This document shows positions 8,539-63,941 of a DNA stretch of 64,000 bases, in pieces; position 1 is the stretch's first letter; each line of letters opens with the position of its first letter. Location of the stretch: NCBI GenBank assembly GCA_029781045.1, contig JAKOXL010000007.1, positions 62,001 to 126,000 of the forward strand. Reading direction: 5' to 3'. This stretch comes from Bacillota bacterium. GTDB taxonomy: Bacteria; Bacillota; UBA994; UBA5500. The notes below the pieces were generated by a model. The model was not told the origin of the DNA. It saw only the letters and a list, made by a program, of their open reading frames with translations, and searched no databases. The position numbers were made by a program, and so were the translations under genes.

Positions 8539-8612
8539 CGGCTCTCCACCTCTCTATCTTCCATTACTAATAGTATATCAATATATTTGTGAAGAGAAAG
8601 TCATAGACAGAA

Positions 8613-8657
8613 AGGAGGCCCGTGGCAGCGGCATTGCAACCGCACCACAGGCCTCCT
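8613..8657 (-). terminator. Terminator of the first membrane operon
   Basis: A stem AGGAGGCC/GGCCTCCT (8613-8620 with 8650-8657) with further GTGG/CCAC pairing, placed 17 nt after the stop at 8675 and followed on the minus strand by TTTCT. It separates the four-gene operon from the two-component operon. Confidence 0.75.
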
Positions 8658-8674: not shown

Positions 8675-9277
8675 CTATACCATGCCCAACCAGTCACCGA
8701 GAATCCGCTCTAGGGCGCCCAGGAGCAATGAAATGCGCCCCATGACAACGTTACCAAAAGAAACACCGAAGGTTATCATCATGATCCATCTGCCTACACT
8801 AGCACCGTATTTGACAGCTCCTCGGTGTTCCATGGAGAAGAAGAAATACAAGAGAATGGATAGCACGCCGAAGACCATGATTATGTTATTGATGGAGTTC
8901 AGAGGCAATAGCGTAGCCTTAATCTGCTGTAGCAACTGGGAGTTCACAACCCCAAAGATGGCCAGACCAGAACCGACGCCGACCAAGAAGGACATTGGCC
9001 AACGGCTGAGCCATGCGATACTCTTAATGAAACGAGCATATAGTAAAATGCCGAAAATACAGGGTATCAGCAAGACTATCTTGCCATCTTGGGTGAGGGG
9101 TGTCCAAGCCTTATCGGCAATAGACTTGGCGTTAACACTGATAGCATAACCGGCAGCGGCACCTACATAGAGGTGTTCACACCAACGATAAACCGGGTTC
9201 TCCTTAAAAATGAAGGAAAACATGGCGATGGTGCCGAGGGCTGCTATCCAAGTCCAGATGTCAGTGGAAATGTTCAT
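8675..9277 (-). CDS. Fourth protein of membrane operon A, six predicted helices
   Basis: A 200-aa polytopic membrane protein with about six hydrophobic segments (near 8-24, 38-52, 65-83, 92-110, 128-148 and 164-190). It aligns along its whole length with the product of 63303-63941. Shared stretches include ENP(V/I)YR, EH(L/I)YVGA, AWTPLT, WLSRWPMSFL or WISRWPMSFL, NNIIM, LYFFFS, and the long end MMITFGV.FGNVVMGRISLLLG. I do not recognise a family with known function. It is the last gene of an operon, 36 nt after the preceding gene, with a good AGGAGGTG site. Confidence 0.85.
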   Translation of the reverse strand: MNISTDIWTWIAALGTIAMFSFIFKENPVYRWCEHLYVGAAAGYAISVNAKSIADKAWTPLTQDGKIVLLIPCIFGILLYARFIKSIAWLSRWPMSFLVGVGSGLAIFGVVNSQLLQQIKATLLPLNSINNIIMVFGVLSILLYFFFSMEHRGAVKYGASVGRWIMMITFGVSFGNVVMGRISLLLGALERILGDWLGMV

Positions 9278-9313
9278 CCTCTCACCTCCTTAACCTAAAT
9301 ACGGAGAACCGGG

Positions 9314-10129
9314 TTATTGCTTCTTCTTGTCCATAAAGAAGGCAATATTACCAACAATAATGAAGGCGATGATAATCAAGTGACCCAAGGACTGAGCATC
9401 CATCTTGGCAACCGAAGGACCAGGATTGCCAGAGACTGTCTCATACTCGGCGGCACCACGCAGACCAGCTAGCATGGCCTTAACCTGCCCTGCGTCTACG
9501 TAGGGCATATATTGAGGCACGCTAACGGTAACGGCACCGGCCAACAAGTTAATACCTAGAGGACCTTGCACCTGGCGAACCCACTCTTGAACACCTGGGT
9601 TACCAGCAGAGAAACAGATGACGGCGGCGAAATCACGAGTATCCTTAATGCCCTGCATAATGGGCAGCGAGCTTACCGGATTGTTGCGGAAGTCGCGAGA
9701 TACCTGCCCGGCTACGTCTTCACCAAAACGCTTAATAGCCGACTCACCACCAGGAACATAACCCAAGTTGGCGAAGTGCACACCGTACTCATAACCTTGT
9801 TCCTCATAAGCACGGATCAACTGCTCACCAAACATCGGGCCAGCTTCCCAGAACGAGATAAAGACTACACCAACGCCCTTGTTCATCATGTGCTTCATAA
9901 CGGCAAGCGCTTGCGGATGCACGTCAGGAGCACCGCTGGGGGCATAATCCAGTGAAAACAACACCTTTTCGCCTGCCGGAATCGCATCCATAATCTGATA
10001 GAACTTGTGCACCGATGGGCCGGTAGAAAGCGGAATCGCTAATGGCCGGATCATCGGCACTGCCGTAGCAAGAATCAGTAGAATATAGATGATGCGACGG
10101 TCGATGTTCTGGAGCTTCTTCCAATCCAT
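9314..10129 (-). CDS. Third protein of membrane operon A, soluble domain between two anchors
   Basis: A 271-aa protein with one N-terminal helix (about 13-33) and one C-terminal helix (about 247-265). The intervening ~210-aa domain is predicted to lie on one side of the membrane. The domain alternates hydrophobic strands and helices (KVLFSLDYAPSGAPDVHPQA, VGVVFISFWEAGP, FAAVICFSAG), which suggests a Rossmann-like alpha/beta fold; this is inference. Motifs shared with 62469-63296: LQNIDRR(I/V)IY, DVHPQA, NLGY, GGESA, SSLPIM, AG.VTVSVP, MPY.D.GQ, GLRG.AEYE and MDAQSLGH. Function unknown. AGGAGGTG precedes the ATG. Confidence 0.85.
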   Translation of the reverse strand: MDWKKLQNIDRRIIYILLILATAVPMIRPLAIPLSTGPSVHKFYQIMDAIPAGEKVLFSLDYAPSGAPDVHPQALAVMKHMMNKGVGVVFISFWEAGPMFGEQLIRAYEEQGYEYGVHFANLGYVPGGESAIKRFGEDVAGQVSRDFRNNPVSSLPIMQGIKDTRDFAAVICFSAGNPGVQEWVRQVQGPLGINLLAGAVTVSVPQYMPYVDAGQVKAMLAGLRGAAEYETVSGNPGPSVAKMDAQSLGHLIIIAFIIVGNIAFFMDKKKQ

Positions 10130-10165
10130 CTCCTAGGCACCTCCTTTCTTCAATTTGCCCTTCTT

Positions 10166-10816
10166 TTACTCCACGCCACCCAAGTGGCCCCGTTCAATGC
10201 CTAGCAGGATGCGGAGCGATGTGGCGAAACCACCGATTGCCGCACCGATCATGATAGCACGCTGGCCCACCGTATTGGGAATATCAACCAGCCAGTTGGC
10301 GATGGACGGGAACTGATTCCAGATCAGCTCGCCGACCGGTGCTCTTCCGAGCATGACCAGAATGGCGGCAAACAGCATCACAGATGCCTCTAAGTTGCGC
10401 ATACGGAAGGCTCGATAGGCGGCAGATGCGATATAAAAAGCTAGTATAGCAAACATGGCAGCGCCCAGAGGTGAAATAATACTATCGTAAAGGTTCTGGT
10501 TCAGTTCGCTGAAGAAGGGACCGGCTCCAAAACGAGCTGCGATGCCAATGACGGCAAAGACAACAATGGCTGCCAGTAGAGTAAGACTATTAATCCAGCC
10601 AGGGCGCTTGCGGGCTACTATATCACCATGAATGCGGAAGAGGTTCACCGAAGCCAAACCGACGGCGAAAGCCGAAACGATAATAACCCAGTCGGTTAAC
10701 TCACCAGCCCATTTGGCAAGAATAAACTCACCGCCGTCAGCAGCTGTGAAAATTCGCGCCAGCAGTACGATCATGCCGACAACGAACGTTATAACCAAAG
10801 GGATTTCCCTACGCAC
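10166..10816 (-). CDS. Second protein of membrane operon A, six predicted helices
   Basis: A polytopic membrane protein of about 216 aa starting at GTG 10816, chosen because GAAGGAGGTG lies 5 nt upstream; a GTG at 10825 overlaps that site. It has about six hydrophobic segments. It is a full-length paralogue of 61809-62447, sharing VGLASVN, RIH, GWINS, AFY(I/V)ASA.YRAFRMR, LVMLG.AP, GQR, and the end IGGFATSLRILLG..RGHLG.. with a final Glu. Function unknown. It lies 48 nt downstream of the DUF6754-like gene. Confidence 0.84.
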   Translation of the reverse strand: MRREIPLVITFVVGMIVLLARIFTAADGGEFILAKWAGELTDWVIIVSAFAVGLASVNLFRIHGDIVARKRPGWINSLTLLAAIVVFAVIGIAARFGAGPFFSELNQNLYDSIISPLGAAMFAILAFYIASAAYRAFRMRNLEASVMLFAAILVMLGRAPVGELIWNQFPSIANWLVDIPNTVGQRAIMIGAAIGGFATSLRILLGIERGHLGGVE

Positions 10817-10863
10817 GTGATACACCTCCTTCTTCAGTTATTAGTCGTGAAGGCACGTACCTT

Positions 10864-11646
10864 TTACTTGCTTAGTAGATCTTTAATGATGGTGATGTCA
10901 GCGGTTGCCAACAGAGAACCGACGAGGATAATTACCATGGTAATTCCCTTAACGATGTCCTGAGAACCGATAGAACCGAGCTTCACCTTGTCCTGAGAGA
11001 GGTAAGCACCAGCGGCATAGAGCTCCTCACCAATCAGGGTGTAGTCGCAAGCGGCTACGAAGAAGGGGAGCTGTGCCATGGCAGCGGTACCAGCAACCTG
11101 GATAGCACCGACTTGAGCGCCAGCCTCAGCGAAGAGTAGCGACTCAGCCCAGAAAGCACCCATCATCAGGTTAGCCGCAATGCGGCGACGGTTCATGATA
11201 CCCATAACACCAGCGGCATAAGCAAACTGCTCACTAGAAAGGAACTGAACCGTGTCCTCCTGGAACATGTCGGGGCGACCAGCTGCTAGATAGCTCTGGC
11301 GAACGATCTCCTGCGCCAGCGGGAATACGTTCGGCTGACGGATGGTAACGATGATCTCCGTGTTGTACTTAGCGGTTAGCTCGGTAACATAGGCGAGAAC
11401 CTCTAAGCCAGCGAACGTCTGCGGAGCGGAGTCGTCGGAAATGTTACCGATACCAGGGGAGAAGTGTACAGGAGCACCCATCTCCGTTGCACGGCCGACG
11501 GCTTCCTCTACGGCGTCCAGACCAGCTAGGCGGCGAATCTTTGGAGTCCACTTGCCAGCCTGAGACATGTTAACACCGATCAGAACGATAGCGCCCATGA
11601 TGAGGACAGTAAACAAGAAGGTAACTCGACCTGCCATGATCGTCAT
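10864..11646 (-). CDS. DUF6754-like membrane protein, first gene of operon A
   Basis: A 260-aa protein with an N-terminal helix (about 8-26) and a C-terminal helix (about 233-252) around a conserved middle domain. I associate it from memory with the family labelled DUF6754. It is about 60% identical by eye to 60999-61769. The best-kept stretches are EEAVGRATEMG, APQTFA, YLAAG(R/K)PDMF, AESLLFAE, GAQVGAIQVAGT and FFVAACDYTLIGEELYA. Such strong conservation in paralogues suggests a structural or catalytic core. The start is ATG with AAAGGAGGTG. It is preceded by a sigma-H-like element and heads four co-directional genes. No function is known to me. Confidence 0.85.
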   Translation of the reverse strand: MTIMAGRVTFLFTVLIMGAIVLIGVNMSQAGKWTPKIRRLAGLDAVEEAVGRATEMGAPVHFSPGIGNISDDSAPQTFAGLEVLAYVTELTAKYNTEIIVTIRQPNVFPLAQEIVRQSYLAAGRPDMFQEDTVQFLSSEQFAYAAGVMGIMNRRRIAANLMMGAFWAESLLFAEAGAQVGAIQVAGTAAMAQLPFFVAACDYTLIGEELYAAGAYLSQDKVKLGSIGSQDIVKGITMVIILVGSLLATADITIIKDLLSK

Positions 11647-11716
11647 CTTGTTTCACCTCCTTTCGCTCTTCCTACAAAGAATGGGGTAAAACTACACCCA
11701 TTACCTTGCTATTATT

Positions 11717-44566: not shown

Positions 44567-44572
44567 AGATGA

Positions 44573-44855
44573 CACAAGCCGAATCGAGCCAATGGCTCGA
44601 GCGGGGGATATATTTTGGGGTGAATCGGTCTTCTGGCCGTAGGGTCTGCCTTTCTTTCCCGAACCCGTCAACTAACCTCGTAGGCTTAGCGCAGAAAGGG
44701 TGGCACTGAGTTCTATTGCCAAACTGTCTTCTGTGGTTCAGCAGGTGCATCCAACTCCTGGTTGGACGCACCTGAGGGCCATAGAGCTGTTTGACATTTA
44801 ACTCGTGTTGCACCAGGCAGCTTTTCTTTCTCTTACTACCAAGTGTTTATTGCAA
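44573..44855 (+). ncRNA. Candidate unannotated RNA between promoter and terminator
   Basis: A 280-nt stretch bounded by a promoter and an intrinsic terminator with no credible frame. It contains a perfect 7-bp hairpin (TCGAGCC/GGCTCGA, 44584-44600) and a stem of about 13 bp with one mismatch (CAGGTGC...GCACCTG, 44742-44774). A string AGGGTGGCACTGAG (about 44697-44710) resembles the T-box core AGGGTGGNACCGCG at 11 of the 13 fixed positions, but the rest of a T-box leader and a synthetase gene are missing. I found no match to 6S, tmRNA, SRP or RNase P RNA signatures. Confidence 0.4.
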
Positions 44856-44879
44856 AAACCGAGCCCTATGGCTCGGTTT
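44856..44879. terminator. Terminator with strong stem
   Basis: AAACCGAGCC pairs with GGCTCGGTTT around CTAT and is followed by CTTTTT on the plus strand. On the minus strand T5 follows too, so it also serves the small membrane gene ending at 44884. Confidence 0.88.
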
Positions 44880-44883
44880 CTTT

Positions 44884-45111
44884 TTATCCCTCTAACCGGC
44901 TACGTCGCTTAGACTTTCGCTTGCCAGTGCCGAACAACTGGGCCACCTGTAGATGGGCCAACAAGACCACCACAGCAAAGAGCAGCCAGGCAAAGCTAAA
45001 CCAACTGGGCAAACCCAGCCCAATCAACGCTGGCAAACGCGGCAAGCCGATGACTACAATCAAAGTAACCATAATGGCCGCCAAATGGGACCACAAACGG
45101 CGACGCTGCAT
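44884..45111 (-). CDS. Small hypothetical membrane protein
   Basis: A 75-aa protein with two hydrophobic segments (about 10-25 and 35-55) and a basic tail (GTGKRKSKRRSRLEG). ATG at 45111 has GGGGTGGTG upstream; GTG at 45120 is in frame but overlaps this site. Family unknown. It follows the HD-GYP gene on the same strand. Confidence 0.62.
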   Translation of the reverse strand: MQRRRLWSHLAAIMVTLIVVIGLPRLPALIGLGLPSWFSFAWLLFAVVVLLAHLQVAQLFGTGKRKSKRRSRLEG

Positions 45112-45168
45112 ACTCACCACCCCTTATATTACTAAGAGTATGGCTGACAGAATCGCCTTAGAAGCAAG

Positions 45169-45193
45169 AAGCGCGCCCTAGGCTAGGCGCGTT
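45169..45193 (-). terminator. Terminator overlapping the HD-GYP stop codon
   Basis: On the minus strand AACGCGCC pairs with GGCGCGCTT around TAGCCTA; the stop codon lies in the loop. TCTTGCTTCT follows. Confidence 0.55.
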
Positions 45194-60919: not shown

Positions 60920-60998
60920 TAAGTAATATACTAGCGGCAGCCGGTTGGATATTTATCCAAGCTGGTTGAATAGCCACAGGTTGAAAGGAGGTAACACG

Positions 60999-61769
60999 TT
61001 GACTAGCTACTTTGTTTTCGGCACTTTCCTTGTTTTAGGCGCTATCATCATCGGGGTGTTGATGGCAACCCACTCTGGTAAGATTGCTCCTAAAATCCGA
61101 CGCATCCCAGCCCTCGATTCCATCGAAGAAGCGGTGGGCAGGGCAACAGAAATGGGGCGGCCGGTGCACTATAGTCCTGGCTATGGTGAGATCACCACAT
61201 CCACAGCCCCCCAGACCTTCGCTTCCTTTGATGTACTTCGTTACGTTGTGACGCTAACCGCTCGTTACAACACCCAGCTCATCGTCACTTGCAAGTCACC
61301 TCAGTCGTTCCCCATTATCCAAGAGTTGGTGAGAGAGACCTATCTGGCAGCTGGTAAGCCCGACATGTTCCACGAAGATACGGTGCGTTTCATTTCCGAG
61401 GCCCAGTTTGCTTGGGCCGCTGGCGTACTTGGCATCTTCAACCGCGAGAAGGTGGCAGCCAATATTATGCTGGGCTACTTCATGGCAGAGTCCCTCCTCT
61501 TTGCTGAAGGCGGCGCACAAGTAGGTGCGATTCAAGTGGCCGGTACTGGTAACCTGGCACAAACCGCCTTCTTCGTGGCAGCCTGCGACTACACTCTCAT
61601 CGGTGAGGAACTCTATGCGGGCGGCGCTTACCTATCCAATGATCCGGGAAAGGTCGGTAACTTGGCTGGGCAAGACGTGGTTAAGTTCCTAACCATCGCC
61701 TTCATTGTTCTTGGCACAGTTCTAGCCACTTTCGAAAGCAATTGGCTCCTTGAACTGACTGCGAAGTAG
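60999..61769 (+). CDS. DUF6754-like membrane protein, first gene of operon B
   Basis: A 256-aa protein with anchors near residues 4-22 and 232-250 and a conserved middle domain. It is a paralogue (about 60% by eye) of the operon A product at 10864-11646. The start is TTG at 60999, chosen because AAAGGAGG lies 7 nt upstream and the alignment with the paralogue then begins at the same point. Shared segments include EEAVGRATEMG, YLAAG, AESLLFAE.GAQVGAIQVAGT and FFVAACDYTLIGEELYA. Function unknown. Confidence 0.86.
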   Translation: MTSYFVFGTFLVLGAIIIGVLMATHSGKIAPKIRRIPALDSIEEAVGRATEMGRPVHYSPGYGEITTSTAPQTFASFDVLRYVVTLTARYNTQLIVTCKSPQSFPIIQELVRETYLAAGKPDMFHEDTVRFISEAQFAWAAGVLGIFNREKVAANIMLGYFMAESLLFAEGGAQVGAIQVAGTGNLAQTAFFVAACDYTLIGEELYAGGAYLSNDPGKVGNLAGQDVVKFLTIAFIVLGTVLATFESNWLLELTAK

Positions 61770-61808
61770 AGATCACCTCAGGTATCGGACTATTAAGGGG
61801 GGAAGAAA

Positions 61809-62447
61809 GTGAAGAGAGGCGTTCCCTTGTTAATCGTGTTTGTAGTTGGCTTCGTCATGCTGACTACCTATTTCATCAAGAACCCAACGTTAGGTCAGGC
61901 CCGAACCCTATTGAACAACTGGGGCGTGATTGTCACGGCTTTCTCCGTAGGTCTGGCCTCCGTTAACATTCTACGCATTCACTCAGCCCGCATTGCCAAT
62001 CGTCGGTCTGGTTGGATCAACAGTGTGGCGCTGATTCTCACAATGTTCATCTTCATCGTTGTGGGCATTTACAGCCGTCATAACCCAGACAACAAGGCGG
62101 CTGCCCAGTTGTTTTCCAACCTATTTGACTATGCTTATAGCCCCTTCAGTGCCACCATGTACGCCATGATTGCCTTTTACGTGGCCTCCGCATCCTATCG
62201 GGCCTTCCGTATGCGCAGTTTTGAAGCCACCTTGCTCCTTACCGCCGCACTCCTGGTGATGCTGGGCAATGCACCTATAGCTGAGCAAATCTGGGATAAA
62301 TTCCCCGTAATCGGCAACTGGCTACTAAACGTTGTCAATACCACTGGTCAACGGGGCATTGCTATCGGCGTGGCTATTGGCGGTTTCGCCACCAGCCTAC
62401 GCATTCTCTTGGGCTTTGACCGTGGACACCTGGGATATGGCGAATAA
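61809..62447 (+). CDS. Second protein of membrane operon B, six predicted helices
   Basis: A 212-aa polytopic membrane protein, full-length paralogue of 10166-10816. It keeps the helix pattern and the motifs SVGLASVN, RIH, GWINS, AFYVASASYRAFRMR, LVMLGNAP and the end IGGFATSLRILLG. The extracellular or cytoplasmic loops differ more than the helices. Position 39 nt after the first gene; ribosome binding site GGGGGG upstream. Function unknown. Confidence 0.85.
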   Translation: MKRGVPLLIVFVVGFVMLTTYFIKNPTLGQARTLLNNWGVIVTAFSVGLASVNILRIHSARIANRRSGWINSVALILTMFIFIVVGIYSRHNPDNKAAAQLFSNLFDYAYSPFSATMYAMIAFYVASASYRAFRMRSFEATLLLTAALLVMLGNAPIAEQIWDKFPVIGNWLLNVVNTTGQRGIAIGVAIGGFATSLRILLGFDRGHLGYGE

Positions 62448-62468
62448 CCGGCAAAGGAGGTGCCATCT

Positions 62469-63296
62469 ATGTGGTTAGAGCGTTTACAAAACATCGACCG
62501 AAGGGTCATTTATACCGTATTGTTGATCGTTCTATTGGGGCCCATGATAAAGCCCATCGGTATACCACTGACGATAAACAAGACTACTTACCAGATGTAC
62601 AATCTAATCGAAAGCCTCAATCCGCAAAGCGACATTGTCATGTTAGCCATGGACTATTCGGTGGCTGGTGCGGCCGACGTGCATCCGCAAGCCGTTGCTG
62701 TCGCTAAGCACTTGGCCAACCGCGGTATCAAGATGGTCATGGTGGCTTTCGTTCCCGACGGCCCCATGCTGGCAGAGCGAGTATTAAACATTCTGGGTGA
62801 CCGGGTTACTTACGGCGAAGACATCGTCAACCTCGGCTATTTATCCGGTGGCGAATCGGCTGTCAAGAAGTTCATTGACGAGCCGGCAACCACGTTCCCC
62901 CGCGATCATCGAGGCAATGCCATCTCCAGCCTGCCAATAATGAGCAATATCAAGACTATCCACGACTTTAGTTTGATCGTCGATTTTCAGACCGGATCTC
63001 CCGGATATCAGGATTTCTTACGCCAGCTACCGGCCGGCGGACCCCTCTATGCGGCAGGTATCGTAACAGTTAGCGTGCCCAACGTTATGCCCTACCTTGA
63101 CTCGGGACAGTTCGCTGCCCTTCTGCCCGGCCTGCGGGGTGGCGCTGAATATGAAGTGTTAATTGGAGAACCGGGAGAAGGTGCAGCCCGTATGGATGCC
63201 CAGTCCCTTGGCCATATGGTTATTGTTACCTTCATCATCGTGGGCAATGTGGCTTACTTCTTCTCCAAGCGACAGGAAAAATCCGGTCGGAGGTGA
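62469..63296 (+). CDS. Third protein of membrane operon B, soluble domain between two anchors
   Basis: A 275-aa protein with membrane helices near residues 14-34 and 250-268 and a soluble alpha/beta domain between them. It is a paralogue of 9314-10129: LQNIDRRVIY, ADVHPQA, GGESAVKKF, SSLPIM, TVSVPNVMPY and MDAQSLGHM are conserved. ATG at 62469 has AAAGGAGGTG 6 nt upstream (a GTG at 62460 would overlap that site). No catalytic motif is recognised. Confidence 0.86.
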   Translation: MWLERLQNIDRRVIYTVLLIVLLGPMIKPIGIPLTINKTTYQMYNLIESLNPQSDIVMLAMDYSVAGAADVHPQAVAVAKHLANRGIKMVMVAFVPDGPMLAERVLNILGDRVTYGEDIVNLGYLSGGESAVKKFIDEPATTFPRDHRGNAISSLPIMSNIKTIHDFSLIVDFQTGSPGYQDFLRQLPAGGPLYAAGIVTVSVPNVMPYLDSGQFAALLPGLRGGAEYEVLIGEPGEGAARMDAQSLGHMVIVTFIIVGNVAYFFSKRQEKSGRR

Positions 63297-63302
63297 TCGA
63301 GA

Positions 63303-63941
63303 ATGAACGTATCAACTAACCCCTGGATCTGGTTTATGGGCATAGGAATGCTCTCCTTATACTCCTTTATCTATAAGGAAAACCCCATCTACCGGCTGTT
63401 CGAGCATATCTACGTGGGAGCCAGTGTAGGGTATACTTTCGTCACCGCTTATGGCAACATCATCGATCAAGCTTGGACACCTCTAACTACAGAGGGGAAA
63501 CTCAATCTCCTGGTGCCGATTATTCTGGGCTTGATGCTTTACACCCGCTACTTTAAACCTATTGCCTGGATCAGCCGTTGGCCCATGTCGTTCCTCATGG
63601 GACTAGGGATAGGCGTTTCCACCTATGGTCTGTTGGAGTCACAGCTCATAGCCCAATCAAAGGCTGCCATGATGCCCTTGTTCGTGAAGAGCAGCGAAGG
63701 AGCCTTGCTCTTAGGCCGCTCAATCAACAACATTATTATGATTCTCGGTGTTCTGGGCGTGCTGTTCTATTTCTTCTTCTCAGTGGAACACAAAGGGCCG
63801 GTACGCCGCATGGCTAGTCTGGGCCGCATGGTTATGATGATCACCTTCGGTGTGGCCTTCGGTAACGTGGTTATGGGACGTATTTCTCTGCTACTAGGTA
63901 CCATAAGTGACATCTTTGGCACCTGGCTAGGTATTATCTAG
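63303..63941 (+). CDS. Fourth protein of membrane operon B, six predicted helices
   Basis: A 212-aa polytopic membrane protein, paralogue of 8675-9277 with an extra ~10 residues in one loop (about 120-130, FVKSSEGALLLG). The last 45 residues, MMITFGVAFGNVVMGRISLLLG and onward, are the most conserved part. The ATG lies 6 nt after the preceding stop with GGAGGTGA. It ends operon B; a broken terminator and an IS element follow. Confidence 0.86.
   Translation: MNVSTNPWIWFMGIGMLSLYSFIYKENPIYRLFEHIYVGASVGYTFVTAYGNIIDQAWTPLTTEGKLNLLVPIILGLMLYTRYFKPIAWISRWPMSFLMGLGIGVSTYGLLESQLIAQSKAAMMPLFVKSSEGALLLGRSINNIIMILGVLGVLFYFFFSVEHKGPVRRMASLGRMVMMITFGVAFGNVVMGRISLLLGTISDIFGTWLGII

Follow-up and report, generated by a model that had tools for sequence, protein, structure and literature searches.

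The described systems that come closest to the locus reported here each resemble one part of it. The Pfam entry PF20539 (DUF6754) covers the domain only and its function is unknown; the 'MutL' proteins of PF13941, among them GlmL and Or-4, are accessory proteins of B12-dependent mutases; RnfC and NqrA carry an N-terminal barrel-sandwich domain; sodium-pumping biotin decarboxylases pair a barrel-sandwich protein and a membrane part of many helices; and in group II of the ECF-type ABC transporters many modules are served by one energising unit. The locus itself is a four-gene membrane module at 8675-11646 (minus strand) of a 64,000-nucleotide stretch of DNA, hereafter the window, which corresponds to positions 62,001 to 126,000 of contig JAKOXL010000007.1 from a Bacillota bacterium of the lineage UBA5500 (assembly GCA_029781045.1). 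The products of genes 1 to 4 were named D6754, TMB, ROS and TMD in this analysis, and they are treated here together with three partner proteins, MUTL, BSH and SML, which are encoded elsewhere in the same genome.

Compared with these systems, D6754 is a full-length member of PF20539 (E 1.8e-93, 312.8 bits vs a gathering cut-off of 27, positions 9-255 of 257), as the DUF6754-like assignment of the initial annotation had suggested. MUTL shares the ASKHA-like domain of GlmL and Or-4 but is about 130 residues longer and stands beside BSH and the membrane module instead of a mutase. BSH appears to have one or two barrels of the RnfC/NqrA kind, whereas the conserved neighbours of the module include no Rnf or Nqr subunits. 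The likeness to the ECF-type transporters lies in the proposed logic only, as the module system has neither an ABC ATPase nor an EcfT-like protein and would be powered by an ATPase of the ASKHA type.

The four genes form one strictly conserved unit, and both gene order and patterns of presence and absence couple this unit to MUTL, the predicted ATPase, to the adaptor BSH and to the small protein SML. The seven products very probably form one complex, judging from their genomic association. Tentatively, the module is taken as part of a new membrane complex of several subunits that would be driven by ATP and may be a transporter, several receptor/channel modules sharing one ATPase unit. That the four genes encode a hitherto undescribed membrane complex had already been suggested; the family, fold and co-occurrence results support that suggestion, but it was incomplete, as the four genes are the membrane half and MUTL, BSH and SML had been missed.

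Conservation of the Four-Gene Module

The order D6754-TMB-ROS-TMD was observed in 106 complete modules distributed over many phyla and is essentially constant wherever the contig is long enough, and the arrangement is therefore not a matter of chance. At least 558 relatives were detected in GTDB genomes, including those of Bacillota, Nitrospira, WOR-3, Zixibacteria, Cloacimonadota, Gemmatimonadota, Eisenbacteria, Planctomycetota and others. A viral origin was rejected, as viral contigs contained no relative. Among the 399 Bacillota genomes sampled, 31 have DUF6754, in as many as nine copies per genome, and in the genome with nine copies (G005) seven four-gene copies stand in one tandem row. 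Of the 399 genomes, 30 contain ROS, every one of them within the 31 with D6754, and the distribution of TMD follows that of D6754 save for one weak match, so that in this sample the homologues occur together and not apart. The distance matrices of the four G005 subunits are correlated with r of 0.92-0.98, a level reached in at most 1 of 2000 permutations, indicating that the copies evolve as whole modules.

Partner Genes and Their Co-Occurrence with the Module

Clustering of neighbouring genes placed SML (about 100-140 aa), MUTL (about 610 aa) and BSH (about 375 aa) directly beside the module in some 25-29 loci from several phyla, and joined operons were found in Clostridia, Symbiobacterium, Nitrospira, Gemmatimonadota and others; no conserved neighbours beyond these three were detected. 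The operon takes the form SML-MUTL-BSH-D6754-TMB-ROS-TMD in Nitrospira, Gemmatimonadota and Planctomycetota, and the form SML-D6754-TMB-ROS-TMD-MUTL-BSH in single-copy Bacillota. In the window's genome the partners lie apart from the modules of the window, as SML-MUTL-BSH-SML on contig C45 and as a divergent MUTL2-BSH2 pair on contig C29, and in a genome of the same family (G003, locus L170) the contig opens with a TMD gene at its edge, immediately followed by MUTL-BSH-MUTL2-BSH2-SML.

In raw counts, which ignore kinship between genomes, D6754 was present in 31 and BSH in 30 of the 399 Bacillota genomes, with both in 29 (Fisher p 1e-40), the positive genomes spanning about ten families; the sets of 22 genomes with D6754 and with BSH are identical among 118 sampled Nitrospirota genomes; and BSH was found in 36 of 38 genomes of other phyla that had been chosen for having D6754. 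The exceptions to the pairing in Bacillota are G032 (78% complete), G107 and G023. Up to nine membrane modules per genome are found vs about one canonical BSH.

MUTL belongs to PF13941, an ASKHA-type, hydantoinase/oxoprolinase-like group, with 424.9 bits for the protein of the window's genome vs a cut-off of 27. Its phosphate-1 (DCGSTTTK), phosphate-2 (VDIGGATTD) and adenosine (GSGG) motifs are nearly all invariant in a 14-sequence alignment, and because these motifs are intact, MUTL is predicted to be an ATPase of the ASKHA type; no Pfam match to an ABC ATPase or EcfT was obtained for the four module products, and no ABC ATPase stands among the conserved partners. The relationship to GlmL would suggest a helper system for B12-dependent mutases, and this reading draws on the membership of MUTL in PF13941 and on the real GlmL and Or-4 genes of the window's genome, but it is most improbable. 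MUTL reached 218.4 bits with the GlmL model NF040745 (cut-off 475; 496 for the true GlmL of the genome), 218.7 bits with the Or-4 model NF040744 (cut-off 600; 656 for the true Or-4) and 157.3 bits with the GlmL family model TIGR01319 (subfamily cut-off 204), and MUTL-BSH has no mutase gene next to it in the window's genome; the helper role was rejected on these scores and on this context. The true GlmL and Or-4 genes (L151:4592-5965 and L152:6330-7685) point to fermentation of glutamate and ornithine via B12-dependent mutases.

BSH has one or two putative barrel-sandwich domains similar to RnfC_N and to biotin/lipoyl domains (RnfC_N 23.1 bits vs a cut-off of 25.6; NQRA_N 27.7 vs 25 in a fused MUTL-BSH), and it differs from RnfC and NqrA by a KOW-like C-terminus, with a weak SPT5 match, and by the absence of conserved cysteines for iron-sulfur clusters in its alignment. 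The fusion, a single protein of 920 aa (L126:17459-20221), supports a direct interaction between MUTL and BSH. A membrane-anchored enzyme would also accommodate these proteins: MUTL would be an ATP-dependent enzyme or activator, like the hydantoinase and oxoprolinase relatives of its PF13941 group, BSH would be a carrier or adaptor, its barrel-sandwich domains resembling those of biotin/lipoyl carriers and of RnfC/NqrA, and the four membrane proteins would anchor the enzyme or link it with an ion gradient, as happens in sodium-pumping decarboxylases. This explanation is distinctly unlikely, since the alignment of BSH (A9) shows no conserved lysine at the barrel-sandwich turn, the biotinyl/lipoyl site, and no carboxyltransferase, flavin or iron-sulfur subunit occurs among the conserved neighbours; the missing lysine and carboxyltransferase likewise separate the BSH system from the sodium-pumping biotin decarboxylases.

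Two further observations concern the partner loci. A protein of 156-174 aa with hydrophobic helices, a possible PH-like domain and no Pfam family is encoded just upstream of SML-MUTL-BSH in several Bacillota (L149:8689-9171, and similar open reading frames in L174, L176, L166 and L055) and is a possible eighth component. The MUTL-BSH pair of G023 (L163:7821-10387), which stands without any D6754 module, has a shorter MUTL of 469 aa and is possibly a relic after loss of the module.

Domain Organization, Topology and Fold of the Subunits

DUF6754 is the sole Pfam family among the four products, with no Pfam family for TMB, ROS and TMD. Searches of the four products against NCBIfam and PHROGs gave nothing meaningful, the PADLOC models of anti-phage defence matched none of the seven proteins, and profile searches of PDB with D6754, ROS, BSH and MUTL yielded nothing usable; a 30-bit match of BSH to a 'lysozyme' fragment was judged to be chance. 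The initial annotation had likewise recognised no family of known function, and no match to a known transporter or secretion system emerged by sequence or by fold.

Hydropathy of 15-16-sequence alignments agrees with the earlier helix assignment, giving two anchors for D6754, six helices for TMB, six for TMD, and two anchors around a domain of 215 residues for ROS. Both ends of ROS carry positive charge in the alignment, and its ends are predicted to lie inside and its domain outside. D6754 has an N-terminal anchor, an alpha/beta domain predicted to be cytosolic and a C-terminal anchor. Its homologues in diderm phyla bear N-terminal extensions of 100-700 residues whose start resembles a signal sequence, and on this ground the N-terminus is predicted outside and the conserved domain inside. 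The extensions are weakly Ig/fn3-like, with Big_9 and fn3 below the cut-off. AlphaFold2 models of ROS (pLDDT 90) and D6754 (pLDDT 85.5) display a confident alpha/beta domain between the anchor helices; a Foldseek comparison of both models with PDB returned generic Rossmann-type matches only (query TM-score at most about 0.36), and no function could therefore be derived from the fold. In Cloacimonadota, DUF6754 forms the end of proteins of 935-1011 aa (L099:2392-5427, L108:7937-10744 and L136:220-3204), in which the long stretch N-terminal to it gives no clear match in Pfam, and the frame of one ROS homologue (L116:4075-6009) also holds a long HEAT-repeat domain (PF13646, E 2e-60), representing either a fusion or an insertion.

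The extensions also bear on a reading of the system as a machine for assembly or maintenance of the cell envelope, handling lipid, polysaccharide or protein, in which D6754 would reach into the periplasm of Gram-negative phyla. The signal-like, weakly Ig/fn3-like character of the extensions and the broad distribution without shared metabolism suit such a role, but it is quite improbable, since most genomes of each sampled phylum have no D6754 (present in 31/399 and 22/118), as would not be expected of a housekeeping function, the module is multicopy in Bacillota and no envelope genes occur among its conserved neighbours.

Variability of ROS and the Sharing of Partner Proteins

Differential conservation was observed among the subunits, with mean identities of 35% for ROS, the most variable, 39% for TMB, 39% for TMD and 46% for D6754. 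In one pair of G005 modules from the same tandem array (L046:3674-6542 vs L047:553-3429) the D6754, TMB and TMD proteins are 97-98.5% identical and the ROS proteins 82%, and DNA identity is about 98% outside ROS vs 71-76% within ROS only, with a sharp block boundary. The simplest reading of this one case is that gene conversion homogenised the two modules everywhere except in ROS, which was kept distinct. An apparent swap of ROS between L073 and L074 was dropped, as the difference is confined to the C-terminus of ROS and is probably a frameshift. Taken together, the variability of ROS, the mosaic in G005 and the presence of many modules alongside about one canonical BSH resemble a shared motor with exchangeable recognition modules.

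A sensory or regulatory membrane complex could show the same features, ROS sensing an external ligand and D6754 relaying the signal to MUTL/BSH, with the ATPase as a switch or assembly factor and not a motor. An ectodomain, a cytosolic domain and an ASKHA ATPase are also the architecture of a sensor, diversified multicopy modules are compatible with many ligands, and most loci have no substrate-specific catabolic operon attached. Even so, a sensor is unlikely: the two conserved six-helix proteins exceed what it would need, and no conserved DNA-binding, kinase or cyclic-nucleotide domain adjoins the module.

Organization of the Locus and of the Second Copy

The features of the window are listed in Table 1. 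The four genes are intact open reading frames arranged head to tail in one direction, as had been annotated, and each of the four starts is preceded at 6-8 bases by a near-perfect ribosome binding site of the AAGGAGGTG type, in line with the strong sites noted before. For TMB, the GTG at 10816 is the most likely start, because the upstream GTG at 10825 sits within the ribosome site and homologues start at 10816. The hairpin after gene 4 has a 13-bp stem (8613-8625/8645-8657) followed by a T-rich stretch on the minus strand, and hairpin and tail form a terminator-like structure at the end of the operon. The paralogues reported at the other end of the window were recovered as a second module at 60945-63941 (plus strand) with the same gene order and 48-60% identity; the contig ends 168 bases past the window, shortly beyond it.

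Table 1. Coordinates of module genes and signals in the window.
Feature	Position	Strand	Basis
Gene 1, D6754, DUF6754 protein, 260 aa	10864-11646	-	PF20539 match, AlphaFold2 model, hydropathy
Gene 2, TMB, six-helix membrane protein	10166-10816	-	Open reading frame from 10825, likely start GTG 10816
Gene 3, ROS, Rossmann-like alpha/beta domain between two anchors	9314-10129	-	AlphaFold2 model, hydropathy
Gene 4, TMD, six-helix membrane protein	8675-9277	-	Open reading frame, hydropathy
Ribosome site of gene 1, AAAGGAGGTGA	11653-11663	-	Read from sequence
Ribosome site of gene 2, AAGGAGGTG	10823-10831	-	Read from sequence
Ribosome site of gene 3, AAAGGAGGTG	10138-10147	-	Read from sequence
Ribosome site of gene 4, AAGGAGGTGA	9282-9291	-	Read from sequence
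Terminator-like hairpin 3' of gene 4	8605-8657	-	Inverted repeat and T-rich stretch
Second module, D6754 paralogue	60945-61769	+	PF20539 E 2e-86, 289.7 bits; 60% identical
Second module, TMB paralogue	61809-62447	+	53% identical
Second module, ROS paralogue	62460-63296	+	48% identical
Second module, TMD paralogue	63303-63941	+	58% identical

Just upstream of the second module, the segment 56843-59856 (plus strand) starts with a thiamine pyrophosphate riboswitch (64.6 bits), after which come genes for an NMT1-like binding protein, for a protein of 99 aa, and for a permease and an ATPase of the ABC type; the set is taken as a thiamine-precursor ABC transporter. A cyclic di-AMP riboswitch (86.1 bits) was detected at 44567-44701 (plus strand), and the open reading frame that follows it (44843-45181) has no NCBIfam match.

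Discussion

The conserved unit and its coupling to MUTL, BSH and SML can be arranged into a working scheme. According to sequence and confident models, TMB and TMD are six-helix proteins, and ROS and D6754 are each a domain held by two anchors; ROS is predicted to face outward and D6754 inward; and gene order and co-occurrence show that the partners of the module are the cytosolic proteins MUTL, BSH and SML, which in the window's genome are encoded elsewhere. MUTL would then hydrolyse ATP and act on D6754 via the adaptor BSH, the action of D6754 would drive a core of TMB and TMD, and this core would move a substrate recognised outside by ROS. Several modules of differing specificity may share one MUTL-BSH unit, comparable to the S components of ECF transporters. 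An ATP-driven transporter with ROS as its receptor is, in our estimate, a plausible but cautious proposal, and as a weak guess its substrate would be an organic nitrogen compound. The wider proposal, that of a class of primary transporters powered by an ASKHA-fold MUTL via BSH and not by an ABC or F/V-type ATPase, with interchangeable D6754-TMB-ROS-TMD modules, is possible but doubtful.

Several points weigh against a transporter of this kind. No subunit has homology to known transporters, and GlmL-like proteins are otherwise tied to B12-dependent mutases, not to transport. Fast evolution of extracytoplasmic domains is common for other reasons, and the ROS mosaic rests on one pair in one genome. 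The co-occurrence counts are raw, G107 has a divergent module without BSH, and G023 has MUTL-BSH without a module. As for the substrate, the excess of amidohydrolase and M20 peptidase genes around the modules (12 vs 4 of 119, p 0.067) is suggestive but not significant and was not counted as evidence, and no riboswitch was found upstream of the modules tested.

None of the known families tested fits the complex. In a literature search of incomplete coverage, no paper names DUF6754 and neither the four-gene module nor its link to MUTL, BSH and SML is described; the papers found on GlmL and on this class of organisms contain nothing about the seven-gene system.

Bacteria of many phyla possess the system, among them Nitrospira nitrifiers, Symbiobacterium, Gemmatimonadota, Cloacimonadota and WOR-3. 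It appears to be unnamed, and the subunits of its membrane module have no recognisable relatives in the set of solved structures. Its recognition brings together hundreds of proteins that otherwise lack a characterisation. If the complex is indeed a transporter driven by an ASKHA ATPase, primary active transport would gain a further class, and if it is not a transporter, it would still define a new ATP-linked membrane complex.

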